Source: Psococerastis gibbosa
Lineage: Eukaryota > Arthropoda > Insecta > Psocodea > Psocidae
Direction: 5' to 3'
Assembly: GCA_963971405.1 (NCBI GenBank)
Contig: OZ020491.1
Location: 812,910 to 876,909, forward strand
Length of the DNA: 64,000 nucleotides
Below are positions 13,216-53,614 of this stretch, piece by piece (within the stretch, counting starts at the first letter, position 1; each line of letters begins with the position of its first letter). A program made the translations under genes and the position numbers. Under the pieces are notes generated by a model. It ran no database searches, had not been told where the DNA came from, and saw only the letters and a program-made list of their open reading frames with translations.

Positions 13216-13731
13216 TTACATTTGCTTCCTCAACCAGTCTCTAAAAGGCGCAATAACTCCACTTCTCCGAAGGAACCTCACAAAAGTGTTGACATTGAAC
13301 GCGATGATGTTGTCCAATAACGGAGTATTATCTTCCGCCTCCTCGTCAAGTCCCCGAAAAATGTCAAAATCGTCATCTTCATCATCATCATCGTCATCAT
13401 CTTCTTCGGAATCGAAATCGAAAAACAATTCAAATGACAAATCATCATCATCGTCGTCTCCGTCTTTGTCATCTTCCAAGCCTTCTTCAGCAGCTTCCTC
13501 CTCTTCCGACTCCTCACTGTCCAGCCAGAGTTCAAACAGTGTTCTTTGTTTATTCCCAACATCCTTCAAACAGTCACCACTAATTTCGCCATTATTACAA
13601 GTGACCACATCTTTTGCTATGACTTCTCTTAACTGAGATGCTCCCGCGGGTTTTGATATATGCTTAGCGGAAGCATAGTCAGTATGTAAGAAAATGACGG
13701 CGGCAATAACTAAAACAGTAGTTAAATGCAT
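13216..13731 (-). CDS. Secreted Asp/Glu-rich acidic protein
   Basis: Name unknown. Residues 1-22 form a clear signal peptide (TTVLVIAAVIFL ... ASA). Two cysteines follow in a short loop (C45-x2-G-x3-G-x-C54). Next is a long acidic tract with Asp runs (GDDDDDDLSFELFFDFD and a second poly-Asp block). The C-terminal segment, about 30 residues, is hydrophobic and basic (FVRFLRRSGVIAPFRDWLR). That last segment aligns with the end of exon 1 of the 17.9-19.3 kb gene. Transcription is supported by a TATAAAA box 33 bases upstream of the ATG. The stop codon overlaps a perfect donor (AT|GTAAGT, exon end 13220, phase 2), so the frame either stops at 13216 or splices to an unseen exon. Acidic secreted proteins of this kind often bind calcium or basic partners. 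That function is inferred. Confidence 0.65.
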   Translation of the reverse strand: MHLTTVLVIAAVIFLHTDYASAKHISKPAGASQLREVIAKDVVTCNNGEISGDCLKDVGNKQRTLFELWLDSEESEEEEAAEEGLEDDKDGDDDDDDLSFELFFDFDSEEDDDDDDDEDDDFDIFRGLDEEAEDNTPLLDNIIAFNVNTFVRFLRRSGVIAPFRDWLRKQM

Positions 13732-14508: not shown

Positions 14509-15090
14509 ATCTAAATTGAGATGGCTACCAATGTTCGACTACCTAACTGAAAATTTCTTCACAACTTTTCATTTCATGACCACCTGAGCCTAAACCCACA
14601 CGCGCTCAAAATGTTATACATATATTTTATATAGTATATTGTATATGCATGTATGTATATCAATTTAAGGAAAGACCGTAACTTCCGTAGATATTACCCG
14701 ATTTTGATAAAACTTGGCATAAAAATTGATCATACAAATGTCTTGATCAAGTTTATTAGCCGCCATTTTGTTTGAGATGGTCCAGTCAGTTAGCATTGGT
14801 CGTACAGGGATAGGATATTATTTGACTGAAAACCCGTAGTTTTATCTACGATAAAATAAATAAATAAATAAATATTGACTTTTTTGGTTCTATTACTAAG
14901 CCAACTACTATTACTAAAGCCCTCTCTTACACTCAACTAGGACCGCCTGCCTTACATGCCCTCCAAAGCATATGCCAGAAAATGTAGGAATGGTGAAAGT
15001 CAGAGTCCGTACCACTACTCTACATGTCTTGACTACGATAATGGTAATTAACACTTTTTATGACAAATTTCAAGCTCACGACCAGTCAAG
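14509..15090 (+). repeat. Interspersed repeat A, copy 2, split by a SINE
   Basis: Sequence matching 7190-7620 runs through ATCTACGATA at 14853, is interrupted by the SINE at 14854-15032, and resumes with CTACGATAATGG at 15033. Copy 1 shows the uninterrupted form. Confidence 0.7.
14854..15032 (-). mobile_element. tRNA-derived SINE (copy with exact target duplication)
   Basis: Read on the minus strand it begins with a tRNA-like head (A-box-like TAGAGTAGTGGT). The B-box region is damaged. It continues through the family body (GGAGGGCATGTAA, TTGAGTGTAAGAGAGGGC) to an (ATTT)n tail. CTACGATAA flanks it at 14846-14854 and 15033-15041, matching the single site in repeat A copy 1. Confidence 0.8.
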
Positions 15091-17040: not shown

Positions 17041-19336
17041 TCACGGCGATTGTTTCTTTGAGTTCGCTTCGACCTTTTTCGGTACATCAGTTTTGCCATC
17101 ACTCTGCTTTGGCTTGGATGAATTATTTTTATTGTTGTCAGCAGTCTTCTTCGTTGAATTATTCATTGTGTCTTCAACCTTTCTAGAAGGACTTGCTTTC
17201 GAGTTGGTATTCTCAGGCTTTTTCGGCGCGTTCACGTTGAGATTCCCCTTGCCTTTGGCAATATTGTTGATGACAACCCCAGTCTTTTTGTCAACCGTGT
17301 TCTGCCCTTGTTTCTTGTTGATACCCTTCTTCGGAGCTTTGCTGATCTGTCCGGCCACTTTGAGCGGTCTCTGGGCGGCTGGTCTGGCTGGATGTCTGGG
17401 GGGTCCCACTGCTTTGTTCTTTTTCTGGTGTAGAGGTCTGTGCACTCCCTTCTTCTTCTTGTGGGCTGCCAGTATTGCATTTCGTCTTCGCTTGCGGCTG
17501 AAATTGAGGGATGACAATTTTTATGGGTTATTCATCAATAAGCTACAAATGCCTCAACAATACTTACACAGTATTATCATTCATACCTACGAAGTACTGA
17601 ATAATGTGTCACTACAGAACAAGTATGTTCTAGCTATTGGGTAGTGGTCAAACTGAAATGGTGATTATTTTTGCCTTTATCAACACCTTCAAAGATTGTA
17701 TGTTGGGGGCTAAGTTGTTAATGAAGATGTTGACCGCAGCCGTTGAGGATCGGGTGAAAAGTTTACTTTCACAACGACCACGGTCCAGGGCTTGTTAGCC
17801 ATCCACCCGTTTCATCGGAATTCTACCACGAGACTTTGTAACTATATTTGACCCACTATTCAGTTGTTTCATAATCAAATTTGAAGTATAACTCTTGCAA
17901 CCCTATTTCTCAAGTGGTTTAATAATACATTTTGGCACTTACGCTTCAGCGATGATCCACTGTTGTATCGGTCCTCGATATCCATTAACTCTCATCCACC
18001 TCATAACAGCCCATATTTTAAATTTTATGAGCTTATTAATTATCGCTTGTTTCTCAGGCGTCAGTTGAAATCCAAGCTCTTCTTCAGACTCATCTTCCTC
18101 CTCACAGTCGCAATCTTCTTCGTCTTCTTCTTCTTCTTCCTCACATTCATCGCACTCCTCTTCGCATTCATCGCATTCTTCAGAAGATTCTTCGGATGAT
18201 TCTTCACAGTCACAATCCTCTTCTGATGATTCCTCTGATGATTCTTCTGATGACTCTTCAGATGACTCCTCGGACGATTCCTCTGACGATTCTTCCTCTG
18301 ATGACTCGCAATCACAGTCCTCCTCAGATTCTTCAGAAGATTCCGATTCAGATGACTCCTCAGACTCAGATGATTCCTCAGATGATTCACAGTCACAGTC
18401 TTCCTCCTCTGAAGATTCCTCTGATGACTCTTCTGATGATTCCTCAGAGGATTCTTCCGATGATTCCTCTGATGATTCTTCCGATGATTCACAGTCACAG
18501 TCTTCTTCAGATGACTCCGATTCAGATGACTCTGATTCTGACTCTGATTCCGACTCTTCAGACGATTCACAGCCACAGTCTTCTTCAGATGACTCCGATT
18601 CAGATGACTCCGATTCAGATGACTCCGATTCAGATGACTCCGATTCAGATGACTCCGATTCAGACGACTCAGATTCAGATGACTCCGATTCCGACTCTTC
18701 TGATGATTCACAATCGCAATCTTCCTCGGACGATTCCGACTCAGATGATTCGGATTCTGATGACTCAGACTCCGATGACTCAGATTCTGACTCTGAAGAT
18801 TCCGATTCTGACTCTGATGATGACGCACATGGATCACATTCATCTGATTCAGAGTCCTGAACTGGGTGGACATGCTTGTGACCTTTTTTAATATTTTTGA
18901 AATTTTTTGCCTTCTTTACTTTTTTTAGCTTTCTTGGTAAAGGATCAGTTGGAAGACCACAAATGCCTGGCAGTACCTCTATTTGTCCTTCTGGGCAAAT
19001 AAGGCCTACAATACTGGGAGGTCGTTCTACGATAATAGGATGGTGGTCCGTAGGAGGCGTGGTCGGTTGTACCGTGGTCATGGCGTCAAATCGGTCCTTA
19101 ATCTTTTTCAAAGCAACCAAAGCAATCACTGTCTTCTTTAAGCTTCGATCCGCAAGTCCATCACTGGGCTGCGAGTCGTCATATTGCACTGCGTCTGTTA
19201 TAAAATCATCGTCTAATAATTCTTTAACCTCACTTGAAAATTGCACACCGTCATTCTCATCTACTTCAGCAGGAAATCCATATGTTGAAAATATGACTGC
19301 GCATATCACTCCTACTTTGAAAATGGTTGATTCCAT
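17041..19336 (-). CDS. Secreted acidic/basic block polyampholyte, two exons
   Basis: The model joins exon 1 (17943-19336, 464 codons plus 2 bases) to exon 2 (17041-17497, one base plus 151 codons). The donor GC|GTAAGT and acceptor TTTCAG|C fit phase 2 exactly and make an Ala codon, giving about 616 residues. The start is the Met at 19336 because an upstream in-frame Met (19384) lies only 21 bases from the TATA box. Order of parts: signal peptide (1-22); a C114-x2-G-x6-G-x-C126 loop; a short Lys-rich stretch; a long Ser/Glu/Asp tract (about 161-430) with seven CDC or CGC motifs set in SSEE/SESE repeats; a helix-like segment ending near WMRVNGYRGPIQQW. Exon 2 begins RKRRR, a possible furin-type site, and is Lys/Asn/Pro-rich. 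It may bind mineral, metal or polyanions, or self-associate by charge. That is inference. The two frames could also be read as separate genes, but exon 2 lacks its own signal or promoter. Confidence 0.8.
17735..17835 (+). repeat. Copy of the GACCACGGCC repeat family within the intron
   Basis: CACAACGACCACGGTCCAGG follows a GTGAAAAG / CTTTCAC short inverted pair, as in the palindrome at 16.5 kb. It lies in the single intron (17498-17942) of the acidic/basic gene. Confidence 0.45.
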
Positions 19337-20524: not shown

Positions 20525-20725
20525 CTACATTACCACTGGATCATAGTCGTGAGTGCCCCTATAATCACATAACCCTAAAACTTGAATATTATTGGGAAAA
20601 ATTGACCGTATCATTCCAAATTTGGCTCGAAACAACAACATTCCCCTATTTTCCATAGGCCGTACCATACCATTAATTTTATCAGAAGTCAGCAGTACGA
20701 TAAATAAGCAGATAAAAGTGGTCAT
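20525..20725 (-). CDS. Possible small secreted protein (66 residues)
   Basis: A single open frame begins with a plausible signal peptide (TTFICLFIVLLTSDKING) followed by about 46 residues with one cysteine (GLCDYRG) and no low-complexity bias. It lies in the secreted-protein cluster and on the same strand as its nearest neighbours. There is no obvious TATA box, no homologous copy in the window and no C-x2-G-x6-G-x-C module, so chance is a real alternative. Confidence 0.25.
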   Translation of the reverse strand: MTTFICLFIVLLTSDKINGMVRPMENRGMLLFRAKFGMIRSIFPNNIQVLGLCDYRGTHDYDPVVM

Positions 20726-25871: not shown

Positions 25872-27092
25872 TTAGCCTCCCCACTCGTCTCTGCAGTTGC
25901 CCTGCATGTCTGGCTTTTGTCCCGGGGGACAGTCACGGGGTGGTAAATCACAGCCGATTATACAGGCAGGTGCAGGTTTCAGCGGAACTTTGGGCGTTTC
26001 TGCAGCAGGCTCTGCATTATTTGATTCTGGAGTTACGACCATGAAGGGAACCGGCTGAAAATAACAAACGTGGCTTTAATTTGTGTTATTGTACTTTACG
26101 GTTGCCTTGGATGTATCTGGTATTCTAGTGGGCATAGTCAGGACTAGAGGACTTGTTGAGTAGTGGCGTGGACTCTAACCTTTACTCGAAAGGTTGCTGG
26201 TTCGAGTCACACGCTTGTTACAGTTTCTGGCCATGCTTTGGAGGGAATGTGAAATAGGTGGTCCCAGACCTTCATGACTGAGTTCACAAGAGGGCTAAGT
26301 ACCTTCTACTCCGCTAGATGAAATGACAGACCTACAGGGGCTTGATTCTACTCTACAAATTCTTAGTATTCTTACCGTATACGATGCATATAGCCCGGGG
26401 GGGGGGGGCAGGGACGGATCTAGCCCATTTGGGGGGTAGTTGTATAAATAAACATATGTAAGGTCGATTAAATGAGAGCGTAATAAATTAACTTAACTTA
26501 CATTAGATTTACTCAAGTTTGAGGGGGGCAGGGGGGGGGGGTAGCTGTCCATCCGACCATGGGTGGGGTCCTACCCAGGGCTTCCCCGGCGGTTTCTTGA
26601 GTAAGTCCAGCACTGGTGGTAGACTGCCATAGTATTCTCTCAAAAGAATTCTGAACGATTTGGTAATTGACAGTTACCAGCTGCTGTAGTCGAGCTGATA
26701 CACTGTGCCAATGGTAATCGTAAGTATGTCTGAGCTTGCCCATTGTCACTTGTAGTCGGTGTGGGTTTACATCGAAGACGTGAACAATTTTGGGAACAGT
26801 ACCAATGTCATGATTTGGTCATTGGCAAGGCAAGGATCAATGGGCCACTACATAGGAGACCTACTTTCATAAAAAGCCCTTGAAATTATAATCAAGTTCA
26901 GCTGTACGATTTGTTTCGACATGTTTTAACCCACCTTTTTAAGCCTTATGCTCGTCTCGTACTGCTAATGCCTTTTTCATATTGGATCAAGTAAGGTGGT
27001 ATCTGAATTTTTCTTACCTTTTGTTCCTGTTTTACAACAGCAGCTGATGCTACAGCCACTACTGCCAACAACACAATCCAAAGGACACGCAT
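25872..27092 (-). CDS. Secreted four-cysteine peptide, two exons
   Basis: Exon 1 (27018-27092) encodes a signal peptide (VLWIVLLAVVAVASA) plus VVKQEQK and ends at AAAAG|GTAAGA. Exon 2 (25872-26054) follows TTATTTTCAG. Both junctions are phase 0, giving 85 residues. The mature part is Pro/Glu/Asn-rich, then four cysteines (56, 60, 67, 79) closing with CPPGQKPDMQGNCRDEW and two Gly. The last pair makes the C-x2-G-x6-G-x-C module shared by five other genes here. The Cys pattern and Trp ending match the peptide at 29.0-29.7 kb, its likely paralogue. Such peptides in arthropods are often gland or immune products, but no function is assigned. The 963-base intron holds a SINE copy and poly-G repeats. 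Confidence 0.75.
26155..26345 (+). mobile_element. tRNA-derived SINE copy in the intron
   Basis: A-box-like GAGTAGTGGCGTGG is followed by B-box GGTTCGAGTCAC and the family body (TTTCTGGCCATGC, GGAGGGAATGTGAAA). The copy is diverged and its tail is degraded. It lies in the intron of the four-cysteine peptide gene, on the opposite strand. Confidence 0.65.
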
Positions 27093-28334
27093 GGCGTCGC
27101 TGTCGTGGAACACTGCAGGGGGATGCTGTCCCAGCACGCAGGCCCATTGTCTGCGATAAAGCCCGCTGATAACCAATCACCGTTATCGCTGTTTATTGTG
27201 AATTTATAGGACTAGGACATTGTACTGTCAATGCTCCTGACCTTGACAATGCAATTGCAGCATTTATGTTAATACACTTTTTCATGCTTAAAGACATTCG
27301 ACAGGATACTGCTCCCGTCAAAGTTAATCACATACAGTTCATTTCAGTGGCGTAAATATATATATATATAAGATATTTTAGGAAGACCAGAACGCCACCA
27401 ACTTGTTGCCATGGTCAGAGGCCAGACACGACGCTAAATCCTACCAACCAAACTGCTTACCGCTCACTTGTCGAATCAGTCATTCATTTAGTGAGGAATA
27501 TCGTCTAATGCGCCCATAAGGTACTTAAGGTATTATTATTATTATTATTGCACATTTAGAGAGTTGGGCTGACACAGGTCTTGGGACCCTTTGAAAGGCA
27601 TAATTATTGGGATGACTTCCCAATCATTCATACTATGACCATTGCCAAAATGACCATTGAAAAACAGCAGCTTTACCTTGTTAGCAAAGACAACCATGTC
27701 CTTCAATGGCAAGTCAATCAGATCGACCTGGTCGATGTAGGCAGCCACAAAACAGCTCAACCGCGCCTGCCACAGGGCTGGACACCATGCGTTCCTTGGT
27801 TTCCTCCGCTCATTGCAGTGCCGGCAGACGGTAGGACCTCCATGACCCAGTTTGGCCATGAGTTACGCTGGCCCCAGAGCCCTTCTGCCGCTCCCCCTCA
27901 CTCTGCAACACCTGCTGGGAAATGACGAGAAGGTAACCTCTCTCGTCATAAAATTTCTAATGTCAACCCCCCTCTTCGGAACACTCTGAGAAGGGTTGGG
28001 TTTGGCGCGATAACAACATGAGCGCGGCAGCCCAAAACGGGCAGAGCGCCTAGCATATTATAAAAAAAAAAAAAAACCATGACCAGTAACCAGGTACTTA
28101 AAATAACGTTATGGGGAGAATATTAGTATGCTGTGTTTATGTATTGTACTCTATTTTTCCCATACCTGGATGGCACCAGCAGAACTCATTGCCAACACTC
28201 CCAATAAAACCATAGGCTACATTTGATTTACCAGTTGAAAAACCAATTTACTGTAAGGTAACGGTAATATCACAAATCGTAGGCTAAATCTACAGTCGTG
28301 ATTCGACGCAAATTAATGAATTTTGTATTCTAAA
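27093..28334. other. Intergenic, transposon relics
   Basis: CAGTGGCGTA at about 27346 followed by (TA)n and 27380-27480 resembles the MITE at 33.06-33.33 kb, but no right end was found. 27541-28070 holds overlapping open frames on both strands and ends in a poly-A run; it may be a retroelement relic. No protein family was recognised in it. Confidence 0.35.
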
Positions 28335-28706
28335 ATGAAACAAATAAAGACACTCGAAGCATTTGAGATGTGGTGTTATCGTCGCATGCTACGAATACCT
28401 TGGCAAGCCCATGTTACATATGAAGACGTTCAAACCAGAGTAAGCGAAACAAAAACTCTACTTGCATCGATAAGGAAAAGAAGAGCTCACTAGATTGGCC
28501 ACGAAAACTTAGTAAGCTGCATCATAGAGGGAACAATAGAAGGCGTAAACCGACCTGGGCGCCCAAGAAACGATTACCTGCAGCAAGTTATGGAGGATGT
28601 AGGGGCCAAGACATACGTGGAGCTGAAGAGAGCGAGCCAAGATCGAGGGGAGTGGAGGCATCGAAGTCTCATGTTGCTGCCAACCAGCCATCCGGCGGTT
28701 ACTTGA
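28335..28706 (+). pseudogene. 3' fragment of a non-LTR endonuclease-reverse transcriptase gene
   Basis: One frame reads KTLEAFEMWCYRRMLRIPW, then VTYEDVQTRVSETKTLLASI, then IGHENLVSCIIEG and GVNRPGRPRNDYLQQ. This matches the C-terminal zone after the reverse transcriptase domain of RTE-like elements (FEMWCxRRMLRIxW ... IGHxxR ... IEGxxxGxxGRxR). A TAG at 28491-28493 interrupts the frame, where such proteins often have Trp. The 5' part is missing. It ends at 28706. Confidence 0.75.
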
Positions 28707-29046
28707 AGAAGAACATGAGGCTTGGCTTTCCAATGGTGTATAATAATAAATATTTAGGGCCTACTTTTGATTATTATTATTATTATGCATTCAAAACGCA
28801 CATCTCAATTCAGAGTGAAACTTTATCTAACTTGCGTCGAATGTATAGTAATACATATTACATAATATATCATATTCAGTTAGAAATTTGGAACACAGCA
28901 TTGTTTTGTTTGTTTCATATATGGATGGTTGGAAATTGAATGAAGTATATAGAGCGTATCAATATTTTTCTTGAGAAGTCTTTAATTACATATAATTTGC
29001 ATCATACAATACTAGTAATGTTTTATGTTTCGTGTGCCCCAGACCA

Positions 29047-29708
29047 TTACCAGCTTGGCCTGCATTTACCGTTGCGATCCCGGTTTTGTCCTCGAGAACA
29101 GGGCAAATTATCAGGACATAAAAGACAGTGCCGCGCTTCAACGGCTGGTGTCATGTTCTGAAATGAAAAATTAGCATTCAGTAATAACCTAATTTCACAA
29201 CTATATAAAATCGAAGTGTAACATTCTATGGGAACCAACATTTTGGAAAACACACTAGGTTACATGTCTGTTGTTAGGTACCTTCGGGGAGGGGGGGTTG
29301 AATTAGTCTAAAGTCTTGTGCCCACCCCTTGGGAAGGTAGGAGTAGATGTCAAAGGGTTGTAAAAGGGGCGATTTATACCTGAAATTGTCATACCCATGC
29401 AGTACGGTATTCAAACGAAACTTCTCTAAATTTCGTACAGGATTTTCCTTAAGAAACCGATCCAATTTTTTAAAGGAGTCGAATTCTTTTAAACTGACAC
29501 AATGAGTAATGAGTGTGTATTTCTCAAAAACAAAAATATTTGACGACCCAAAAAGGAGTACGCCCTGTAGGATATACTGCATATTGTATTTACTAGTGTA
29601 GTAGTGTACAATAGAGGCTGTGCTACGTACCCGTACATGTTTTTCATGATGCGGTTTTGCGAAACCCAGGGTCAGTATTACCATTAGAAGAAACCAAGTT
29701 ATTTGCAT
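29047..29708 (-). CDS. Secreted four-cysteine peptide, two exons (paralogue of the 26 kb gene)
   Basis: Exon 1 (29631-29708) gives a signal peptide (MQITWFLLMVILTLGFA) and a His/Lys-rich stub, ending CGG|GTACGT. Exon 2 (29047-29157) follows TTCATTTCAG. Both are phase 0, for 62 residues. The four cysteines are at 37, 40, 46 and 58. The end reads CSRGQNRDRNGKCRPSW, the C-x2-G-x6-G-x-C module followed by R-x2-W, as in the 26 kb peptide. A TCAGT initiator-like sequence lies about 25 bases before the ATG. The longer open frame through the intron to 29274 is not supported by the module homology. Its function is unknown; gland or defence peptide is a guess from size and cysteine pattern. Confidence 0.75.
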
Positions 29709-30049
29709 GCTGCAGTCCTACAGAGTTTCCCACTGATAAAGCAGAGACGTACTGTAAGCAACTGTTGGTTTACCTTGTATTTAGCTATATGAAGTGGGTG
29801 GGAGGTACCCAATTTCGCTTTAGGCTAACATTTAGTGATTACCTTTACTCCAACATCACCAGCCCAATGGACCGATTTCGTACACGAATGCCTTAATTAC
29901 GTGATGTATTTTACGTTATGACTTCATATCCATTTAGGCACATGTACGAGTATAACCGACATTTTTTTCTATCCGTAATTCATTGTGTATTTTGTTTTGT
30001 AATTCATTGTGCCTACACTGAGGAATAGTCCAGTAGGTCAAGAGTATTT
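29709..30049. other. Promoter flank and intergenic, no gene recognised
   Basis: Upstream flank of the four-cysteine peptide gene. No coding signal was seen on either strand. Confidence 0.35.
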
Positions 30050-30345
30050 AAGTATGGAAATGAGGAAGCTGATGGACTCGCCAGAGAGGGAGCTGGTATG
30101 GAAAACAACCTGACAAGCCCATGACTTTACGTAACTGTAAGAGGCTCACCAAAGAATTCTTTCAAGCCAATTGTGAGACAGCTGACCGGACCTCGACCAC
30201 TGGGAAAACTTGGGAAAAATTATTGCAGAAGTAGAAGAAGTGTGACACCCGGGAAGAAAGGGACGGAAAACACTACAAGACGTTCTGTAGCAGTCGTTCA
30301 CTAGATTATACGTTCTATTGGGCTGCAAGAAAGCTGATGTCGTAA
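30050..30345 (+). pseudogene. Fragment of a retroelement RNase H domain
   Basis: One frame contains GNEEADGLAREGAG, the signature near the active-site Asp of RNase H domains in non-LTR elements. It then runs through stops with LTGPRPLGKLGKNYCRS. It is decayed and isolated. The rest of the element is absent. Confidence 0.5.
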
Positions 30346-30419
30346 CCGATATTATTACTTTTTTTTAAAAATAGTATTGAAGTGAGCTATGAAACGGCTC
30401 GAATAAAACAATGAAATCA

Positions 30420-30600
30420 TTACAATATGTATCTCGTCAAATTCTACCGGGTTTCATGCGGACAGACAGACATTGCGTAAAAAACCTTTTTTTTTTTTTT
30501 CTTTCCTGGGTCTTTAAGCCTTGTAAATCCGTTGAAATCTCGAAATCGAAAATTTCGACCATAACAATATTTACCTTATACTAACTTATAAATAGGAAAG
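30420..30600 (+). repeat. Fragment of repeat B (right end)
   Basis: GACAGACAGACA, poly-T, TCGAAAATTTCGACC and the end TATAAATAGGAAAGCA match the right part of the repeats at 45.7 and 54.3 kb. Confidence 0.6.
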
Positions 30601-30734
30601 CAAAAATGCCACTTTTTCCATCGATTTTGACAGCTATTGCATTCATGAATACCATATATGGTTATATACTGGGACTACGTATTATATCTAATCTTCACGA
30701 ATGACATCAACTGAATGCATATATATTGCAGTGA

Positions 30735-30875
30735 TTGCATTGTTGTAGGACCTATTCAATGAAATTTAAACAAAAACCTATGATTAATGAACACAATAAT
30801 GCTTTTCCAAGAAATTAACCAAAATAAGGCATTTCGTGACGTAAAAGCAAACAAAGAGCGGCAGTGTCACACAGC
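30735..30875 (+). repeat. Dispersed repeat G, copy 1
   Basis: About 140 bases (AAACAAAAACCTATGATTAA ... AATAATGCTTTTCCAA ... GTGACGTAAAA) recur nearly identically at 34899-35035 in the same orientation. This copy lies about 180 bases upstream of the next gene's start codon. Confidence 0.65.
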
Positions 30876-31052
30876 ATTGAATGGTTTGAGTCAGGCCAAT
30901 GCAAATAACATTGAGCATTGAGTCATATCGCACGAGTAATAAAATGTCTCGCTCTACATCAACACAATGATGCTGATAAACCCAGTCTTACTGGAGTCTC
31001 CAAAGCCTGGAGAAGTGCAGTACCTACTCTGTATAGTAATAGCCCTTCAGAA

Positions 31053-32972
31053 ATGTGGCTGAGGCAAGCAACACTATTAATTATCATTGTTTGCGCGCTG
31101 ACAATGGTTTCAGGTAAGATTACTGTTAGAATATATAGTCCAGTGGCGCGTACTCCGACTTTCACCCCAAAGACTGTTAGTTACGTACGGTACAACGACT
31201 TTTGGACGTGCTCCTGTCATTATTACTGTATTGCTATCAATATTGGCATACCCTTTCTAGACTGTGCAATCGTCCTATCGAGCAATTCAGTGTTTTGGGA
31301 TAGGGAAAGTCGAGGCAACCAAAATTTAGCCCTAGGACCCTGGTTTCCCATTGAACTAGCCTATTAGATTATCTATTTCTGTACCTATAATAATATATAA
31401 ATAGGAAAGGCATGTACCGGTTCACTCATACCGGTTCTTGTACTTTAGGTACAGCCCTCTGCACTCTGGAGGGTCACAATATTGATTTATCAATTTTACT
31501 CATAGAATAATCGTTAAGTTTAATGTTCGTCAATGCCACGGTCTTCGGAAGAGTATATAAAAATTCCTTTTCGGCTCTGACCGATGAGGTGTTGGGAGAC
31601 TTCCTCCACACTACCTACGCTATGCATGTAATAATAAAAAATAAAAAATATTTCATTATTTTCCCGACCACAACATCAACACACAAAATACTCCTGTGTT
31701 CCACATTTCGAAGCACAATGCCGACTTTGAAGTTTTACTTATCAAATTATTTTCACTTTGAGTGGATGCCATCTTAAAATAGTTCATTTGTCGTAAAAAG
31801 TGTTTATTACCATTATCGTAGATAATAATACGGGCTCTCAGTCAGATTTTAATTCATTCCTCTTCGACCATTATTTACTGAGATATGAATTATATAAGGT
31901 TTCAATCGGCCACCATCTTGTAACTAAATAGTGGATCTAGCTGGTCAACGAACTCAATCAAGACATCTGTGTGATCAATTTTTGGGCCAAGTCTCAACAA
32001 AATCGGGGGGTCATGAAATGAAAAGTTGTGGAAAAATTTTCCGGAAGTCGGACATTGGTTGCCGTCTCAATAAGTAGATGAATCTCCCTGAAATGAAAAA
32101 AATTCTCGTATATATACGCTATCTATACGCTGATCAGTACCTACCTCATCAAATTATGATCACCCATGTCCTGGTCGCGTACAGACTGCTCAAGCCCAGC
32201 GATAGTAATTTTATTGTAATGTAATGAGCATATATTATGCGCAATTGATTAATTTGATTGATTGATTGGTGTATTGAGAGCAAAGAGCAAAACGTTAGTG
32301 TGACCGGTTGAAATTCATAAAAAATTAAATAGGTAACATAGCACATCCCGATGGCTACCTACCTATTCTAGTGCATTCGAATTCTAAAGATACCTAATAA
32401 CCTGTAAGACGTTTCTTACGAAGTTTCAATTTTGTTGTTTTACTTTTTTATTTGGGTCTGGCTCTGCTAACTGATCTAAAATTAGTTACTTCGAAATTCT
32501 TCTTCTTAAAAAAGGTTGCTGAACTGAACTCAATGGTTTTTTTCTTGACCACTGCTCTATTTGGGTTATTGTGGTCAGGTACATGCCTGGCAGCCGTTTG
32601 CCACCCATAACGCCTATGAAGCTGAGGTATCCACATCAGGATTGATCATTCTTGTCGAGTGTCGAACCTCGCCCATGGGTTTTTTATGATTCTGTTACAT
32701 TAGCCGACAGTTACATCTTTCATTTCCTTTCAGGGTTTTGGGTGCCTCTTCTAGACAGAAGCCGAGTGAACAGGCAGCACAATTTATCATCAGAAACACA
32801 CAAAACGCTTCAGGGGAAAAACGGCACCACCACATTAAATGAAGAAAACTCGGCTGTACTGCCAAATGAAGTATTGGGGGTGCCACTGAAACGCCCGCAG
32901 CCCTCGCCCCGGTCAACGTGCCCCCCGGGCACACGCCTGGGGCTGTTTGGCATGTGCCGCGAGATCTGGTAA
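31053..32972 (+). CDS. Secreted two-cysteine peptide, two exons
   Basis: Exon 1 (31053-31113) encodes the signal peptide WLRQATLLIIIVCALTMVS and ends TCAG|GTAAGA in phase 1. Exon 2 (32734-32972) follows CATTTCCTTTCAG and restores a Gly codon, giving 99 residues. The mature part has a basic start, Asn/Thr/Glu-rich middle and Pro-rich segment. It ends STCPPGTRLGLFGMCREIW. The cysteines at 83 and 95 form the C-x2-G-x6-G-x-C module, followed by R-x2-W as in the two four-cysteine peptides. It runs opposite to them. The 1.6-kb intron contains repeat A copy 3 and a repeat C copy. Name and function are unknown. Confidence 0.8.
31643..32094 (-). repeat. Interspersed repeat A, copy 3 (inverted)
   Basis: The reverse complement of 7180-7765: TTATTTTCCCGACCACAAC, ACCATTATCGTAGATAATA, GTGGATCTAGCTGG and GAGATTCATC-type end are all present. 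It lies in the intron of the two-cysteine peptide gene. Confidence 0.7.
32520..32645 (+). repeat. Dispersed repeat C copy
   Basis: TTCTTGACCACTGCTCTATT then GTGGTCAGGTACATGCC matches 55375-55495 (inverted) and the degenerate copies near 9.5-9.8 kb. Confidence 0.5.
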
Positions 32973-33055
32973 AGTCATCAATTAAATTCTAAATTATTCC
33001 GCAAAAATGTAGCTCAGACACCAGTTCGAATACTGTTCTATACTGTACAGTACAC

Positions 33056-33328
33056 CAGTGGCGTACTCATAAAATACTTTCGGGGGGAAGACCAGATCAC
33101 TTCCAGCTTTATTAACTTTTTTCCGCCGGCAGAGGCCCAAGACGACATTGAATCCTGCCATTCGAACCGCTTACCTCTCACTGTTGACCCGAGGGTCTAT
33201 TGGATATGGCAAGTAACGCCTCTCAACAACTATTCAATAAAACAACAATTCTCAACAATTCTATTCTATAAAAAAAAAAACACCCATTAGTTAACTTACC
33301 CATTTGGGCCCCCGTATATACGCCATTG
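33056..33328. mobile_element. hAT-type MITE with CAGTGGCGTA ends
   Basis: Left end CAGTGGCGTACTC and right end ATATACGCCATTG are inverted. The 8-base flanks CAGTACAC (33048-33055) and CAGTACAT (33329-33336) differ at one position. CAGTGGCGTA is a common hAT terminus. It is non-coding, 273 bases. Confidence 0.8.
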
Positions 33329-34898
33329 CAGTACATACAGCTCAGTAAGCACTAAACGGTACAATATCATCACAAGTTATATATTAATACCTCCTCACAA
33401 ACTATGAGTGGAATTAAATTGAGAATATGTGTTTGAATATTAATTACATAATGTACGTACGTATTTGGATATAAATTTTGTATTGATTTGTTCTATAACC
33501 TAGAACCTGGCTCATTTTGTAACTAAGCTGTCAGCATCTCTTTACTGTTCCAAGTTAAGACGACTATAACAAACTTCCGGAGACTTCAAAAATCTGATCA
33601 TAGTTAGAGCTATAGAGCTAAGTACGGCAAGTATTTGACTCATGTTTTTTATGTCTGTTAATTTTTAATCTTTCCATATCAAATCGTGGGGGCTTCAGAA
33701 TATGGAAATTAAGTAAATTTCGTCCAAAAGACTCGGTCATGATTTGCTTACAAATTATTTGGAGATGTCTGCCTTCATTCTTACTATTAATTTATTTTAA
33801 TGACTTGCCATCCTTAAAATCCCCGGGTTGATTACACCGGACCGGGATAAGACGCTTGGAATAGCTGAAGGAGGTTGGATATAGCTGTGCTGAGGAATCG
33901 CCTTATCTAGTGGCAGATTATATGGCGGCTGAGAAAACAGAACGGCAGGATTCCAGTATTTACAATCCATTGCTGTTGAGCCTCGCCAGTCATTGGCGCG
34001 ACAGCATTTGTGTAGCCCGCAGCGCACCGCTGTAAATACAGCTCTCCCACCTCTCTCACCATGTTTGCCTTAACACTACTGCCCCTGGATTAGATTAGTA
34101 CGCTCTAGGCCCATACTCCTACTACTCTATGTTTATAGTGCGTCTTGCGGAGGTTTCAAGTTTTAGGCCGCCTTACTATATCTACAGACCAACAATTGAG
34201 TCGCCTGAAATCAAGAGTAGTTCTCTCCAAAATTTTCAATTTTTATATTTTGGCGCCATTTCTTTGATTGGCTGGCTGCGCATCTATCTGAATTTTGGTT
34301 GGAATAAAAAACAGTTTTGTCGGACTATGTGTCGCCATTCCACCATAATCAAAGTTCTGTCATATTAGGAACCAAACCTGTTCTCTCCATTTCATAGAAT
34401 CAAAAAGCAGAATGATGAAAAAGATGGATTATGTACATGGTGTTCACTTTACTTACTATAACTAGAATAAGTCTCTCGGTCAGATGCTGATATTGGGGCC
34501 TTGTGATCTGAATGAGTAGCCTACTTCCAAAATTTATCATCAACATTTGTGGTCGTCACACTATGTGGACTTCTAAAATTGTCTGTCAGTTGCTTCTGTT
34601 CTGAGATACGACCTACGAAGTACGAAGTGTACACATGGTGCCACATAGAAGATGTTAGTTGGTGGCAAATGGCGACAAACGCATGGAAATACTCTTTGAG
34701 ACTGACCACGGCTCATCAGCCCGGATTCAACTCTAACACTGCAATACAAATGTGGGAAAACAGAAGTACGGTACGTACGGTTGCATATCATCAAAATTGC
34801 AGGGGGCCCAGACTAGTTCCCTAACAAACCTATTAATATTATTGTTGGAATAGGCTAAAGCCCTTTGAACAGTCATAAGTCGCTTCACATTGCTTGCA
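33329..34898. other. Intergenic, no gene recognised
   Basis: The minus frame 33797-34027 has a Cys-rich start (CGLHKCC) but no signal peptide or splice support. A repeat of the GACCACGGC family sits near 34600-34740. No gene is called. Confidence 0.35.
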
Positions 34899-35035
34899 TT
34901 GTTGTGTAGTAGTAGTACCTATTCATTGAAATGTAAACAAAAACCTATGATTAATGAACACAATAATGCTTTTCCAACAAATTAGCCAAAATTAGGCGTT
35001 CCGTGACGTAAAATCAAACAAAGAGAGGCAGTGAC
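34899..35035 (+). repeat. Dispersed repeat G, copy 2
   Basis: Near-identical to 30735-30875, same strand, about 4.2 kb away. It has no coding frame and no visible terminal repeats. Confidence 0.65.
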
Positions 35036-35098
35036 AAACCTAAACATTCTGCTGTTTCTAATGCCTATATGTTGTACAAAACATTTATTGAGGGGGGT

Positions 35099-35246
35099 AT
35101 TCCATATACGTACAACGTCAACGAAAAATTGAAAAATGACGTTTTAGCAGACATTAAAGACATACTAAAAATTCTGCTACCACGTCAATTTACGTCATTT
35201 TGACGTCATTTTTCAATTTTTCGTTGACGTTGTACGTATGTGGAAT
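35099..35246. mobile_element. Fold-back MITE with ~44-bp inverted arms
   Basis: Arms 35099-35142 and 35203-35246 are almost perfect complements (ATTCCATATACGTACAACG on the left; CGTTGTACGTATGTGGAAT on the right). A loop of about 60 bases separates them. ACGTCA is repeated several times in the right arm and loop. No clear target duplication was seen. Confidence 0.75.
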
Positions 35247-36139
35247 GGGCACCTAAGAACTACAACCGGTTATGCCATTAAAAGTGAAATTTTCAATTAT
35301 TGCAATTAACAAGAAAACATATTTCAAAATCGTGGGAAATTTCGTTCTTGGTCTATTTTCTCCACAAACTCTGCATTTCAGGTCAATCGTCAAGACTTCT
35401 CATTGTTGTTAGAAGGTTCGAATAAGGTGCTGTTGCGAATAGGCTAATTCTTGGACAGTTTGAGATGACTGGGCACTCGATTGTGCAATTTCTCCTGAAA
35501 CGTAAATGATTGATTGATTAATTAATTGATTGGTTACATCAGGGAATATACAGGGTGATTGGAGACGGAATAGAAATGTCAAAATCGACAAGCCATGAGA
35601 GGACAGTTTTCGCCTTCCCCAAGAAAATTACACTACTCCAGGCTCCTAGCTCCGAATGAAATTATTGAGGATAGAGGACAGAAAGCCAAACGGAAGGATG
35701 AGGGGTGATCTAAGGAAGATTTCGATGGTGGCTCAAGGGATGAAGACAAGAACTGTGTTGTTTGGAGAGAGGTGGCGCGGGAACCACCAAAAATCACGTG
35801 TATTTTATTTAGTACCTACAGAGAATATTAAAATTAATAGCCCGGACTTCGTTTGTTGCCTGGCAACGGCGAGTCAAGGTCACACTACACACCGCTTTCA
35901 GTTTAGAAATCACGCGTTTGACAAAAAAAAAAAAAATACACGTGATATCTTACTATACCCCTATCCCCCTTGTGATAGCGCCCCCCTTCGAACCTCACGT
36001 GATTAATGGACCTAAGTGTTCCAAATTTTTTTATCCTATCGTACTCGGGGAGTACATACAATAAGTATGCCACCAGGCATACCACCCGACCACGACTTGG
36101 CAATGTCATCCTATTGTGGTCGGGTAGTATATTATACAA

Positions 36140-36330
36140 TATAATTAATAAATAAAGACTTTTTGTTCTATTACTAGGCCAACCTAGTGGAGTTAGGGCT
36201 ATAAAGCCCTCTCTTACACTCAACTAGGAAGGCCCGGGACCGCCGGCTTTACATGCCCTCCGAAGCATGGTCAGAAAATGTAGGAAGTGTAGGACTCGAA
36301 CCAACAACCTTTCGGGTGAAAGTATATGTA
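36140..36330 (-). mobile_element. tRNA-derived SINE copy
   Basis: The minus strand carries GGTTCGAGTCC (B box) and the conserved body ending AATAGAACAAAAAGTC and (ATTT)n. The head with the A box is truncated near 36330. 35247-36139 holds no supported gene. Confidence 0.7.
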
Positions 36331-37024
36331 TATGTATGTAACACAATGAACGGGGGGTAGTTTTAGGTTCACATGGTAGGTAATGAAGAAATTTTCCGGA
36401 TTTCGAAAATTGGTCGCCGTCTCAAGAGGTACAATAGGTCAATAGATGAGATCTCCTTAAAACGCGTAGACCGGCGACTACACGACGTACTTTGATTTTC
36501 TGTTAATAGCATATTATTTCCAATTAAATATAACTGTAATTTGTATGCTACTGTTATTGACCTATTTAAAATCATTGGTTGTTAATGCAGACATGGCACA
36601 TTGCAGCCTTAGCCTGTAGGCAGAGCATACATTAGTTGCACGAATACACAGTGAAGGTCGACCGAGGACAATAACTTATACTGCCGCCTGTCAACTTCGC
36701 CAGCTTAAAATGAATTAGAACAAGGCGGTTGTTTTGAATTTTATGAATTTCGCAGGCCAAGGGCAATGATCCACTTAGGCTAAAATCACACCTAGGCTTA
36801 GGCAATACACGAAGTCGAAAAATATTAGGATTGATTGACTTGGATTTTATGCACATTAAGATTGGGCTCTGGATCTTTTAGATCTGGAAAAGGAAATTGA
36901 CTAAAAATTTGACAGAGCGGGGCTAGAACGGTTTGTCCAGATTTTTCGGTTCTCCTTTCCGCATATGTTATTCACAGGAGGTTGTCTTCTCAACCTATAA
37001 GTCAATTGAATAAGAGTATGTAAA

Positions 37025-37255
37025 AATAAAATAAATAAATAAATAAATAAGGACTTTCTATTGTTTCTATTACTAAGCCAACCTAGCGGAGTTAGGGCTA
37101 TAAAGCCCTCTCTTACACTCAACTAGGATGTCCCGGGACCGCCTGCTTTACATGCCCTCCGAAGCATGGCCAGAAAATGTAGGTAGTGTGGGACTCGAAC
37201 CAACAACCTTTCGGGTGAAAGTCAGAGTCCGTACCACTACGCTACATGTATTGAC
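37025..37255 (-). mobile_element. tRNA-derived SINE, best full-length copy
   Basis: Read on the minus strand it starts with a tRNA-like head: A box TAGCGTAGTGGT and B box GGTTCGAGTCC. A family-specific body (GGAGGGCATGTAAAGCAGGC, GAGAGGGCTTTATAGCCC) and an (ATTT)n tail follow. This is RNA polymerase III promoter architecture with a simple-repeat tail, as in SINEs mobilised by a partner LINE. Other copies are near 14.9, 26.2, 36.2 kb, with tail fragments near 3.5, 55.6 and 63.35 kb. Confidence 0.85.
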
Positions 37256-38550
37256 ATGTACTGTACACCATAACGTTTTATTATTGATAACTGTGCTTTT
37301 TGTGCGCGAAAACATATCATTTGCTGAACATATGTTGTCATACCTTCAAGAATAAATAAATATATTATTCTGTTACATTATTATTCAATGAAGCAATCAA
37401 CAGAAAAGTATAAAGTAAACCCGTAAAAAATCTTTATAAATCAGGTAGGTACAAGTAGTTCTGTCATTGTCATAGTGCTAATGTTGCAGTGACAGTGACA
37501 TGAGCACGATTTGTATTCAAATAGCTCGCAAAATGTGATCAATAGTTGGCGATAGGTACATATTATTATGAATCAAAGGGTATAGGGACATTTATTCTAC
37601 TTTCAGACATCTAATTTGTGGCTCAACAATCGATATATTTCCTGTGAAAATTGGATTTTGTTTGGGTTTATTTCTTTGGCCGTTCGATTAAGGCGATGAT
37701 TTCAATGTTCTGTATTTTCTAAACAAAAAAGGTTGGGTATTGTAGACTAGAATAATTTATCCATCGTTTCACAGCTTCTAAGAATAAGCAAATGGTCTTT
37801 ATGGTCAATGGTCAAAATTTAAAAAAAAATACAATATTTCGTAGTACATTGCATTTTTGCACCGTAATTATATTATTGCTCTAAAATCTCCACTTTAAGT
37901 AGGTACTTGAAGCATATTCTTCAAATTAATGTATCCTCACCATTATCGATCGGATAAGGGATTATGATATAGGGGCCCTTATTTGAAAATTAAACTGCGG
38001 TTACTCAATGGTACTAATGTACTTTACCATTATTAGTATGTAGTCTAATATCAGGCTCGAAATTGTGTATTATTAACGTTGTTTACATACGGTTGTTTCC
38101 AACGTCTGCTTTCAGCATTTTTGCTTTAAGCAACCCTGTCAGCCTGGCGAGGGGAGTGAGTCTGTTTGTTAACTTGAGGCACCCTAAGGGCAGACTCTTC
38201 CACCTCGGGGGAAAGGGGAGTTGACTGACAGGGTGGACCTCCTGATTAGAGTGGATTCCGAACCACTTGGGGAACATTTACATGATAATGTCACACTATT
38301 AAATTGGAGGTGTCCAGGACTCGACACGCACGTAGACTGACTGGTATAGTCTCAGCGCGTTACCATGTACTACCATGTTACCCTGCCAACGCTGTGTACT
38401 CTACCAAGTTTACCGCAGTTTGAAACATGCTCTGCTGTCATGGATTCAACATGGTAAAGCCGTTGGCTAAGGCATTGTTTAGATACTTTAAATATTCACA
38501 TACCTTACATTGTTCCTGCTTTCGTAGTGCTTCATGTACGGGCATCGAAC
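37256..38550. other. Intergenic, no gene recognised
   Basis: No supported gene. After the stop at 38551 the minus strand shows CAATGTAAG|GTATGT, a possible donor, so the neighbouring gene may have a spliced 3' untranslated region reaching into this stretch. Confidence 0.35.
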
Positions 38551-39021
38551 TTACTCCATCTTAGCCCTCCTCTTGATCTCCTTCACCCGTTCCTTCACGT
38601 GTTCCTTTAACCGCTTCTGCTCTTCCTTCACCAATTTCTCCTGTACTTTCCTCTGTTCCTTGGCCTCATCTCTTGCCCGCTTCTCCACCTCCCGATCTAA
38701 TTTCTCCTGAACCTTCCTATCCCTCTTCGCCAACCATTCATCTCTCAAAGCCTCCCTTTTGCCCAGTGTAGCCGTGTTGCGTATCTCTTGTACATCCTTA
38801 TTGAACTGCTCAGGATCGGTTCGTCTTTTTTCGGCAAGACCCCTCTTCAAATCGATGATTTTGTTTACTTCCTCTTGTGACAGTCTTCCGAAGCGAGATG
38901 CCGGGACACAATTTCCTTCTCTTGTCAAAATTTGCCCGTCAGAACATAAATTTTCAGGACTTGCACTGTTAAGTGCGAAAATTGAGGCTAGAAGGCATAG
39001 AACACTGGTTAAACGGCACAT
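38551..39021 (-). CDS. Secreted Lys/Glu/Arg-rich helical protein with one cysteine loop
   Basis: A single open exon of 156 residues. Residues 1-20 are a signal peptide (LTSVLCLLASIFALNSA). C26-x2-G-x6-G-x-C38 (CSDGQILTREGNC) follows directly. The rest is a highly charged, probably coiled-coil helix with repeats of the type KVQEKL...E-KRAR and KVQEKLVKEEQKRLKEHVK. A CATAAAAG box lies about 40 bases upstream of the ATG, with a TCATTC initiator-like site near it. It is divergently arranged with the 40.06 kb gene, which has the same layout (signal, loop, Lys-rich helix), so they are probable paralogues. Function unknown. Confidence 0.75.
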   Translation of the reverse strand: MCRLTSVLCLLASIFALNSASPENLCSDGQILTREGNCVPASRFGRLSQEEVNKIIDLKRGLAEKRRTDPEQFNKDVQEIRNTATLGKREALRDEWLAKRDRKVQEKLDREVEKRARDEAKEQRKVQEKLVKEEQKRLKEHVKERVKEIKRRAKME

Positions 39022-39060
39022 GATGATTTGATGAATGAGGCACTAACGTGGAAAGTTGTG

Positions 39061-39068
39061 CTTTTATG
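39061..39068 (-). promoter_or_regulatory. TATA-like box of the 38.6 kb gene
   Basis: CATAAAAG on the minus strand, about 40 bases before the ATG. Confidence 0.5.
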
Positions 39069-39069
39069 T

Positions 39070-40015
39070 GAGAAATGCGCGAAAACACAATTTCAAGGTT
39101 TAGGTGAATTACCAAAGTTAAACAAATGATGTGATAACAAGGAGGACACGCCATTTTGTGTTATTCCAACAGATGATGACTCATTTATGGGTATTTCAGA
39201 GCTTTTCTTTATTGTAAGAAAACTGTAGGTAGGTACTTGATAAGAAAAACGAAGCTATGCCTAAAATGCATCAATAAATAATTTATAATAAATTTTGCAA
39301 GAAACACTCCTTGTGCTAGTGTCGGTCATAATGGATTTTACCAGATGCCAAGGATTCTACCTATACATACATAAATACCCAATGTAGGTAACAGTGTATT
39401 TGTACTGTATTGAGTTGCATTATGCTAAAATATACATTACATATCCTATGAGCTTTCAGATTCAGATATCAGTAAGAAAATTTATGAAAATTATTTGAAG
39501 TTGACGGTTCAGTAGCGTGTAGGTATTGCATTAGTATTGCGGTTGGTATTGTTAGTATAGTTGGCCTATAGTACCATAACAACCATCCACATCACGTTGA
39601 AAATAAAAGATTTAAAATAATAATAATTCGTGTATTTCCTTAATTTTTATTTACGTTTTTACGTAGCGGCGTGCGAGGGTAGCACTCAATACCTAACTAA
39701 CAATTCAAATTTATTAATGCCGACTAACTGTGTAATTTACCGTTAAGGTGGTCACTGGTAAGGCACCCTGATTTGCAACACCTACAACATATTCAGCATC
39801 ATTAGGACTGACAATGAGACGGGGCTCGAATGTCTCAAAACTTATTCACGCACCTTAACATTCCATAAAATGTAATATTTCTCTTCACAGAGTATTCCTA
39901 ACCGTGACCCCCATTTCAAAAAACAAGATGGCAGCTTTGTAGATACTCTAGACTAACTTCACCTTCACCTCATGAGCTTCCACGCAGATCATCACTTGAA
40001 TAAATCATACAGAGG
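39070..40015. other. Shared divergent intergenic region, no gene recognised
   Basis: About 1 kb separates two head-to-head Lys-rich secreted-protein genes. It contains no supported coding frame. Any shared enhancer would lie here, but none can be identified by eye. Confidence 0.35.
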
Positions 40016-40022
40016 TATAAAA
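40016..40022 (+). promoter_or_regulatory. TATA box of the 40.1 kb gene
   Basis: TATAAAA, 44 bases upstream of the ATG at 40060, as expected for a short leader. Confidence 0.65.
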
Positions 40023-40059
40023 ACAACTGCATTCTCCATCATGAAATATATCACTCACA

Positions 40060-40773
40060 ATGGCTAACTACTTCACAGTCTTATGCGTCTTAGCAAGCCT
40101 AGCCGTGATCACATGGTGTCATCCAACCAATATAGAGAAAGTTAAAAGTGATGCAAAGTGTTTGGAAGGAGAAGTATTGGACCCTACAGGAAAATGTGTT
40201 AAAGGAACCGTAGCTGCAGCTCCCGCACCAAAACCGACGTTATCTCCCGAGCAGAAAGCAAAGAGAAAAGAAGTCAAAATGGCGAGGAAGCAGAAAAAGA
40301 GGACTATCAAGAAGAAGCTTGACGATGAAATCAAAGAGATTAAGAGATTAGTGTTTGAAGGTTTGGAGAAGGGCACGATTGATTTGAAATGTCCTGACGG
40401 TAAAGAATTTAATGAACAAGGAGAGTGCGCGAGTGAGGCAGTGCCAGCAACTGCAGCAGATGTCCCTGTAGATGAGAAGAAGGCGCAAAAAGCAAAGAGG
40501 ATGGAGATGCGGTTGGAGAAAGAATTGGAGAAAGTGTTGAAGAAGGAGATTCAGATGGAAATGAGAGCGAAGAAAAGGAAGGAGCAGAAGAAGGAAAAGA
40601 GTGTGAAGAAAACGAATGCGAACGGAGCACGTAAGCCCGGCAACACAGACTCTTTGAAGACAGAAGCGATAAATAGTGTTGCTGAAAATAAGAAAACAGC
40701 TGAAGTCAAGCCTGCTGCAGATTTGAGTGGAAGTGATGTGGCCAAGGAAGTGGTGGGAGGTGTGGCACTTTGA
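40060..40773 (+). CDS. Secreted Lys-rich protein with two cysteine-loop modules
   Basis: A single exon of 237 residues. The signal peptide is 1-20 (YFTVLCVLASLAVITWC). Loop 1 is C34-x2-G-x6-G-x-C46 (CLEGEVLDPTGKC) and loop 2 is C111-x2-G-x6-G-x-C123 (CPDGKEFNEQGEC). Each loop is followed by a Pro/Ala stretch and then a Lys/Arg/Glu-rich helix (KEVKMARKQKKRTIKKKL; MEMRLEKELEKVLKKEIQM). This suggests an internal duplication of a loop-plus-helix unit. The C-terminus is Lys/Asn/Ala-rich, ending VVGGVAL. A TATA box lies 44 bases upstream. The divergent neighbour at 38.6 kb carries one such unit. The helix may bind acidic partners such as the Asp/Glu-rich proteins of the same cluster; that is speculation. 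Confidence 0.85.
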   Translation: MANYFTVLCVLASLAVITWCHPTNIEKVKSDAKCLEGEVLDPTGKCVKGTVAAAPAPKPTLSPEQKAKRKEVKMARKQKKRTIKKKLDDEIKEIKRLVFEGLEKGTIDLKCPDGKEFNEQGECASEAVPATAADVPVDEKKAQKAKRMEMRLEKELEKVLKKEIQMEMRAKKRKEQKKEKSVKKTNANGARKPGNTDSLKTEAINSVAENKKTAEVKPAADLSGSDVAKEVVGGVAL

Positions 40774-49981: not shown

Positions 49982-50452
49982 TTGATATCGTTGGAACAAT
50001 ACGGGAGAAACCGAAACCTAGAAATTAAAGAAGTGGAAGTAACTAAAGGAGAAAATGCAGAAGAAATTGTATTGAAAGTGGCAAAGGAATTGGAAATCAC
50101 GCTGGAAAAATCGGACATAGAAGCTTGCCACCGTATTCCAAATAAACAGGGGAAAATACCAGGTATAATTGTTCAATTTCAATCAACAAAGAAGAGGAAT
50201 AAGATGCTGGCACAAAGAAAGAAAATTGTTACAAACCAACAGCTTACAGGAAATGGAAATGGCAGAATATATATATCCGAAAACATGAGTCCTTACTACA
50301 GAGATTTGGCCTGGAAAGCACGTGTCAAAGCAAAGCAAATGAACTATAAATTTGTATGGTTTCAAAACAACAAAGTGCTCGTGAGAAAAGACGAAAATAC
50401 TAAAGATACGATTGTCATAGAAAACGAAAAACACTTAGACAAATTAGTGTAA
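49982..50452 (+). pseudogene. LINE ORF1, N-terminally truncated (FP-like RNA-binding domain)
   Basis: The frame opens in mid-domain with LEQYGRNRNLEIKEVEV, the start of the FP-type segment found in ORF1 proteins of many insect LINEs. It continues through ACHRIPNKQGKIPGIIVQF and KKRNKMLAQRKK to a stop at 50452. The N-terminal coiled coil expected before LEQY is missing, as is usual after incomplete reverse transcription. ORF1 proteins coat the element RNA. The apparent Met at 49982 is probably not a true start. Confidence 0.75.
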
Positions 50453-50480
50453 ACGTCAGATTGGCATAATACAAATACAA

Positions 50481-53550: not shown

Positions 53551-53614
53551 ACTTCAGACATCCTGACAAAAAAAACATTAAATAAATAGAAAAAAAAAAA
53601 AAAAAAAAAAAAAA

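Follow-up and report, generated by a model that had tools for sequence, protein, structure and literature searches.

A 13-residue loop with the spacing C-x2-G-x6-G-x-C recurs seven times in six neighbouring genes for predicted secreted proteins (A to F) in the insect Psococerastis gibbosa. The genes lie in a stretch of 64,000 nucleotides (contig OZ020491.1 of assembly GCA_963971405.1, positions 812,910 to 876,909), which is called the window below and is numbered from its first letter. As judged from their deduced products, genes A, B and C are like the growth-blocking peptide (GBP) precursors of insects in both motif and layout, whereas D, E, F and a seventh gene, G, are not GBP-like in layout. 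The reading favoured here, to which a probability of about 0.5 is given, is that A to C encode GBP/PSP-like cytokine precursors with the active part at the C-terminus, and that they stand beside other secreted proteins sharing a one-disulfide β-hairpin. The seven loops, located by a six-frame motif scan, are the following.

25893..25931, minus strand: loop of gene A, CPPGQKPDMQGNC
29062..29100, minus strand: loop of gene B, CSRGQNRDRNGKC
32919..32957, plus strand: loop of gene C, CPPGTRLGLFGMC
38908..38946, minus strand: loop of gene D, CSDGQILTREGNC
40159..40197, plus strand: loop 1 of gene E, CLEGEVLDPTGKC
40390..40428, plus strand: loop 2 of gene E, CPDGKEFNEQGEC, also noted for a match to PDB entry 2rps (E 0.14)
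18959..18997, minus strand: loop of gene F, CPEGQIEVLPGIC

An earlier sequence-only reading of the window had listed these seven loops in six secreted-protein genes. All were recovered letter for letter, and they are the sole matches to C-x2-G-x6-G-x-C in the six frames of the 64 kb. All six genes have a hydrophobic N-terminus, as has G (maximum Kyte-Doolittle value over 11 residues 2.63 to 3.22), and the loop lies behind the signal-like part in every gene, in agreement with the earlier placement in the mature region. The interval that had been given for the set, 25872 to 40773, holds five of the loop genes and leaves out F at 17 to 19 kb.

The excess of loops over chance is real and the observation stands well above expectation: in 150 windows simulated with an order-2 Markov model, the motif occurred 0.18 times on average and at most twice, against the seven observed, the chance model being one of DNA composition and not of the make-up of Cys-bearing (arthropod) secreted proteins. 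In the same simulations the GBP consensus, C-x2-G-x(4,6)-G-x(1,2)-C-[KR], had a mean of 0.11 and a maximum of 2 (three observed), and the consensus followed by a stop codon within six residues downstream had a mean of 0.027 and a maximum of 1 (again three observed). When the second Gly and the length were left free (C-x2-G-x4-12-C, no inner Cys), 32 matches were found in the window, the seven loops included. Because this loosened pattern is common, the specificity of the loop lies in its exact spacing together with its gene context.

Genes A, B and C share one plan, in which a first exon with the start codon and a hydrophobic stretch is followed by a GT-AG intron and a last exon bearing the loop.

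27018..27092, minus strand: gene A exon 1, start codon and signal-peptide-like stretch, 25 codons, donor GTAAGA (sequence reading, hydrophobicity)
25872..26054, minus strand: gene A exon 2, pro-region, two extra Cys, loop, RDEWGG and stop; acceptor TTATTTTCAG, joined in frame in phase 0
29631..29708, minus strand: gene B exon 1, signal-peptide-like, donor GTACGT (sequence reading, hydrophobicity)
29047..29157, minus strand: gene B exon 2, CLLCPDNLP, loop, RPSW and stop (motif scan, AlphaFold hairpin, IMPI match)
31053..31113, plus strand: gene C exon 1, signal-peptide-like, donor GTAAGA (sequence reading, hydrophobicity)
32734..32972, plus strand: gene C exon 2, pro-region, basic sites LKR and PSPR, loop, REIW and stop (sequence reading)

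Each of the three would need a single intron, at 26055 to 27017 in A, 29158 to 29630 in B and 31114 to 32733 in C, and the predicted GT-AG sites agree in phase and have pyrimidine-rich acceptors. The predicted proteins are 85 (A), 62 (B) and 99 (C) residues long. Among the loop genes, only these three carry the loop at the extreme C-terminus; it is followed by Arg, two residues and Trp (C-R-x-x-W), to which A adds two Gly. Two further Cys stand directly upstream of the loop in A and B, which gives four Cys in the mature part of each; C and D have two each, and the range over A to E is two to four. If the precursors were cut after a basic residue, peptides of 20 (Arg) or 34 (Lys) residues would be released from A, of 27 (Arg) from B, and of 25 (LKR) or 19 (PSPR) from C. 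A copy of an inverted repeat (31608 to 32006) sits in the intron of gene C.

The possibility that these gene models are wrong, and that some loops are consequently untranslated, bears on A, B or C. The last exons are short (61 codons in A and 37 in B, stop included), the models rest on inferred splice sites, and near gene C there is no poly-A signal at the usual distance, one lying 8 bases past the stop and the next at 263. On the other side, a hydrophobic N-terminal exon joins a loop exon in frame in all three, with the splice signals described above, poly-A-like signals follow the stop by 88 bases in A and 60 bases in B, and A resembles both B and C. An error of this kind is very improbable.

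The published GBP consensus is C-x(2)-G-x(4,6)-G-x(1,2)-C-[KR] and the active peptide has 19 to 25 residues; GBP-type cytokines are described from six insect orders, with an EGF-like hairpin and, in Drosophila, the receptor Mthl10 (PMC6439351). A scan of the window with this consensus returned A, B and C only (three of the seven loops). The statement of the sequence-only reading that it knew no named family with this spread of partners was too strong, as A to C agree with the printed consensus (PMC6439351) and the loop resembles 2rps, IMPI and GBP/PSP, though below significance. With GBP/PSP (ENF) peptides, A to C share the consensus motif and would have in common a predicted secreted precursor, a C-terminal peptide and a similar predicted peptide length, and B also a predicted short β-hairpin. 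They differ by the extra Cys pair of A and B and by the lack of a significant sequence match for A to C; in D, E and F the loop is near the N-terminus or internal and its final Cys is not followed by a basic residue, which G lacks too.

The other loop genes follow different plans. In D and E, both read as single exons, the loop comes shortly after the signal-like stretch and is followed by a long Lys/Glu-rich segment; E has a second loop and segment. In F, an acidic protein, the loop comes before long repeats, and G has a putative shortened form of it.

38551..39021, minus strand: gene D, 156 residues, signal-peptide-like stretch, loop, long Lys/Glu/Arg-rich region
40060..40773, plus strand: gene E, 237 residues, signal-peptide-like stretch, two loop-plus-helix units
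17943..19336, minus strand: gene F exon 1 (likelier start 19336), signal-peptide-like stretch, loop, Ser/Glu and Asp-Cys repeats, helix-like tail
17041..17497, minus strand: gene F exon 2, basic tail; an inferred splice from a GT donor at 17942 keeps the frame
13216..13731, minus strand: gene G, acidic protein of 171 residues with the shortened loop CNNGEISGDC at 13570 to 13599

The loops thus belong to three gene classes (at least three architectures), A-B-C, D-E and F-G. Within the first, BLASTP among ten proteins of the window gave an E-value of 2e-5 for A and C and of 5e-4 for A and B, with likeness extending outside the loop. D and E matched at 3.6e-7 in the better direction and 1.2e-4 in the other. 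The two units of E aligned with a score of 86, reached in none of 3000 shuffles of either kind, and the score of unit 1 against D was reached in 6 of 3000 shuffles and 3 of 3000 segment-wise shuffles. The tails of F and G aligned with a score of 49 (shuffle mean 19.9; none of 5000 shuffles reached it), and G is probably a relative of F by this likeness.

Between the classes, the best BLASTP matches in the ten-protein set fall on the loop (B-D 0.003, A-E 0.024, A-D 0.11). A six-frame search of the window led from A to C (0.003) and B (0.076), and from D to E (9e-4) and B (0.007); whole B found the loop region of D at 0.017 and A at 0.022, with an unrelated match ranking behind at 0.10. At the nine free positions of the loop, likeness across classes exceeded that of shuffled loops (p = 0.0063, 20000 shuffles), as it did within classes (p = 0.0026). 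This cross-class likeness of the loops favours either a single origin or a structural need common to them, without separating the two, and it suggests common descent of the hairpin across the classes. The earlier proposal had been a disulfide loop reused by one local family that diverged around it. The part of it that concerns recurrence of a likely disulfide loop in adjacent secreted-protein genes is supported; a single family does not agree with three or more architectures and with cross-class matches that centre on the loop.

Structure models were computed with AlphaFold from very shallow alignments, of three sequences for B and two for E. The model of B has strands at residues 50-52 and 58-60, and that of E has strands at 38-40 and 46-48 in loop 1 and helices at 63-104 and 139-190. 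In both loops one strand covers the three residues that follow the first Gly and the other covers the last Cys with the two residues behind it, so that the B loop and loop 1 of E are modelled in the same hairpin register. By blocks of ten residues, the predicted local distance difference test (pLDDT) value for the hairpin of B is 75 to 85 (mean 85 in residues 51-60). Foldseek, run with E up to 10, listed 48 matches for the B model and 5 for the E model, and all of them had E above 0.001. The best IMPI match of B had a probability of 0.85, with 48% identity over 23 columns and a root-mean-square deviation (rmsd) of 4.2; the GBP-type entry 1b1v aligned with an rmsd of 0.7 over 17 columns (E 9.2). 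Many low-density lipoprotein (LDL) receptor and clotting-factor matches came up as well, which shows how little specificity a short Cys hairpin has.

In sequence searches of the PDB, the profile of all seven loops placed 2rps first (E 0.24), with Mucin-5AC and ERL2 both at 1.6. Entry 2rps, a 32-residue peptide named 'Chemokine', is taken by us to be the armyworm hemocyte chemotactic peptide (HCP). It has the exact C-x2-G-x6-G-x-C spacing, but its E-values are non-significant and matches at chance level lie close. Loop 2 of E found 2rps at 0.14, galectin at 0.18 and a β-lactamase at 0.82; single queries with A, B, C, D and loop 1 of E gave no match to 2rps. At the free positions the 2rps loop scored best with loop 2 of E (13) and D (8) and worst with loop 1 of E (-7). 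The A peptide found only 9qs0 (0.82), C only a tumour necrosis factor (TNF) receptor match (0.62), loop 1 of E only a carboxypeptidase (1.7), and D had no match. The B peptide found the IMPI alpha fragment at 0.081 and ovomucoid at 0.22. That these matches are weak is shown by ovomucoid, Mucin-5AC, ERL2, galectin and β-lactamase standing beside IMPI and 2rps.

Pfam contains a GBP model. With E up to 10, that model was not matched by A to F (F as exon 1) or by the seven loop peptides, in a search run without a positive control, and nothing rose above cut-off for nine proteins including A to F or for the loop peptides; G, I and J had no match with E up to 0.01. Since the curated model gave no match and the search had no positive control, A to C are called GBP-like and are not filed as members of the family. 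The A peptide had a weak match to Secapin of the honey bee (PF17521; E 0.32, 11.5 bits, below the curated cut-off of 25.9). Other weak matches (PspB, CcdA, PBP_sp32 and others) fell within signal peptides or charged stretches and were discounted. Three viral contig loci (L001-L003) with one identical reading frame matched A through CDLPPRDC and were rejected as chance; a search of viral contigs with E gave no match. In Drosophila, too, gbp1 adjoins gbp2 (PMC4771208), which speaks for the GBP-like reading, and the hemocyte chemotactic peptide and its effect on blood cells are named elsewhere (PMC4194352; PMC13116936). No account of a comparable locus was found in the literature within reach, which did not include most subscription journals or the original GBP and HCP papers.

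Besides the absence of a Pfam GBP match, a number of results weigh against GBP/PSP-like precursors and a common hairpin. The residue after the last loop Cys is Val in D and in loop 1 of E, Ala in loop 2 of E and Gly in F, where the GBP consensus has Lys or Arg. The 27 residues of the B peptide exceed the published range, and the 20-residue cut of A separates the loop from its two upstream Cys. No database match is significant (best E 0.08), and the profile of A to C found nothing in the PDB. The mean pLDDT is 67.3 for B and 65.0 for E, loop 1 of E lies in blocks of 59 to 64, and loop 2 was modelled with single bridge residues only. In Foldseek, the first four ranks for B are IMPI chains (E 0.49 to 1.1), above the GBP/PP/PSP entries 2djc, 1v28, 2eqq and 1b1v, which make up 4 of the 48 matches and are weak (E 5.4 to 9.2). 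In the ten-protein BLASTP, B and C have no direct match, and A matches the unrelated protein J at 0.031, about as well as E at 0.024; the match to J marks the noise level of that comparison. Without the loop, the score of the linker and helix of E was reached in 54 of 3000 shuffles and 297 of 3000 segment-wise shuffles, so that a helix repeat of E alone is not demonstrated. Unit 2 of E against D was unconvincing as well (66 and 216 of 3000, respectively).

The prominence of IMPI raises the question whether the hairpins of A and B, and perhaps of all classes, are a remnant or analogue of the C-terminal half of a TIL-type inhibitor and not of cytokines, A and B having kept two extra Cys. IMPI and AMCI are presumably both TIL-type. 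The match of the B peptide to IMPI alpha is a better single match than any to GBP, and both have the spacing C-x5-C-x2-G-x6-G-x-C. The modelled hairpins of both B and E can be aligned with IMPI, which takes the first ranks for B, as noted, and ranks 2 and 3 for E (E 7.4 and 8.5, with an rmsd of 0.6 over 15 columns), Apis AMCI appears at rank 40 for B (E 9.9), and Mucin-5AC turned up in the seven-loop profile search. A TIL domain, however, needs about ten Cys, and IMPI has more of them than the window proteins: the four of mature A and B and the two of C and D are too few. No TIL match was seen in Pfam with E up to 10, and all IMPI-type matches stay below significance. This inhibitor reading is considered rather unlikely.

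Coincidence would be a different explanation for the pattern, with A-B-C, D-E and F-G being three unrelated secreted families that lie side by side and a simple Cys-Gly hairpin arising easily in each. The confinement of the best cross-class matches to the loop speaks for this, as do the frequency of looser loop forms in the window and the presence of other secreted-protein genes, H and I, that have no loop. Against it stand the seven loops with exactly this spacing, roughly 40 times as many as the simulations gave on average, the likeness at the free positions across classes, and the finding of the D loop region by whole B ahead of the unrelated match. Chance juxtaposition is an unlikely explanation.

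Further features of the window were noted. Two tandem-duplicate genes for secreted proteins, probably with three exons each, have the following positions.

42797-44134 and 57326-58774; 44836-45074/60416-60658; 48070-48159/61281-61370, minus strand: two tandem-duplicate secreted-protein genes

Their exon 3 proteins are 67 to 69% identical, and all three exons align as DNA at 74 to 78%. Neither has a C-x2-G-x6-G-x-C loop, and in the 60 kb copy the last residues of exon 2 are KKQVCPK. Three candidate exons for an intron-split eighth loop in the 60-61 kb gene were considered and none was convincing; it is more likely that this gene continues into the loop-less exon at 58.7 kb than into a split loop. 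A loop-like end at 14914 to 14970 was dropped, as it had no supporting gene model. A signal-peptide-like exon at 20671 to 20725 (minus strand; MTTFICLFIVLLTSDKING) has possible donors, and searches with the loop patterns found no partner exon. At 3950 to 5212 (minus strand) lies a gene for a Gly/Pro/Ser/Tyr-rich protein of 420 residues with a hydrophobic stretch near its start and no Pfam match with E up to 0.01. An open reading frame of 746 residues at 844 to 3084 (plus strand) matches DUF4371 (E 9.4e-20) and, below cut-off, a hAT dimerisation domain; it is probably a hAT-like transposase. A retrotransposon of the long interspersed nuclear element (LINE) type, with endonuclease and reverse transcriptase reading frames, lies at 49982 to 53438 (plus strand). 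Long inverted repeats of 84 to 86% identity (47095-47901 with 53610-54394, and 7391-7795 with 31608-32006) are probably transposon copies. Rfam and tRNA scans of the window gave no matches.

If A to C are GBP/PSP-like cytokine genes, the module would be a one-disulfide β-hairpin of the kind found in these insect cytokines. Small secreted precursors would be cut behind a basic residue to release a C-terminal peptide of about 19 to 27 residues, with C-R-x-x-W at or close to its end, and by analogy with the GBP family this cut may be made by a trypsin-like protease. In the blood the peptide would then serve as a cytokine-like signal, with blood cells as its most likely target, and its receptor, again by analogy with GBP, would most likely be a Methuselah-like G protein-coupled receptor of the Mthl10 kind. 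The hairpin would cap long charged helices once in D and twice in E, and both are probably secreted binding or scaffold proteins; in F and G the hairpin would be set within acidic repeat proteins. The three classes probably have the hairpin in common by descent within the locus, all else having diverged completely.

A more far-reaching proposal is that one ancestral gene for a GBP-type hairpin gave rise, by local duplication, to the cytokines A to C, the hairpin-plus-helix proteins D and E, and the acidic proteins F and G, and that GBP, the chemotactic peptide and perhaps the TIL half-domain all go back to one hairpin; this is doubtful. With GBP-like precursors placed beside proteins that have the same hairpin, gene order, as evidence beyond a few loop residues, could be used to test shared ancestry. 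The gene plan of A to C also suggests a search rule, namely a signal-like exon together with a short last exon ending in C-[KR]-x-x-aromatic near the stop, which would target cytokine-like genes of the type that domain search missed here.

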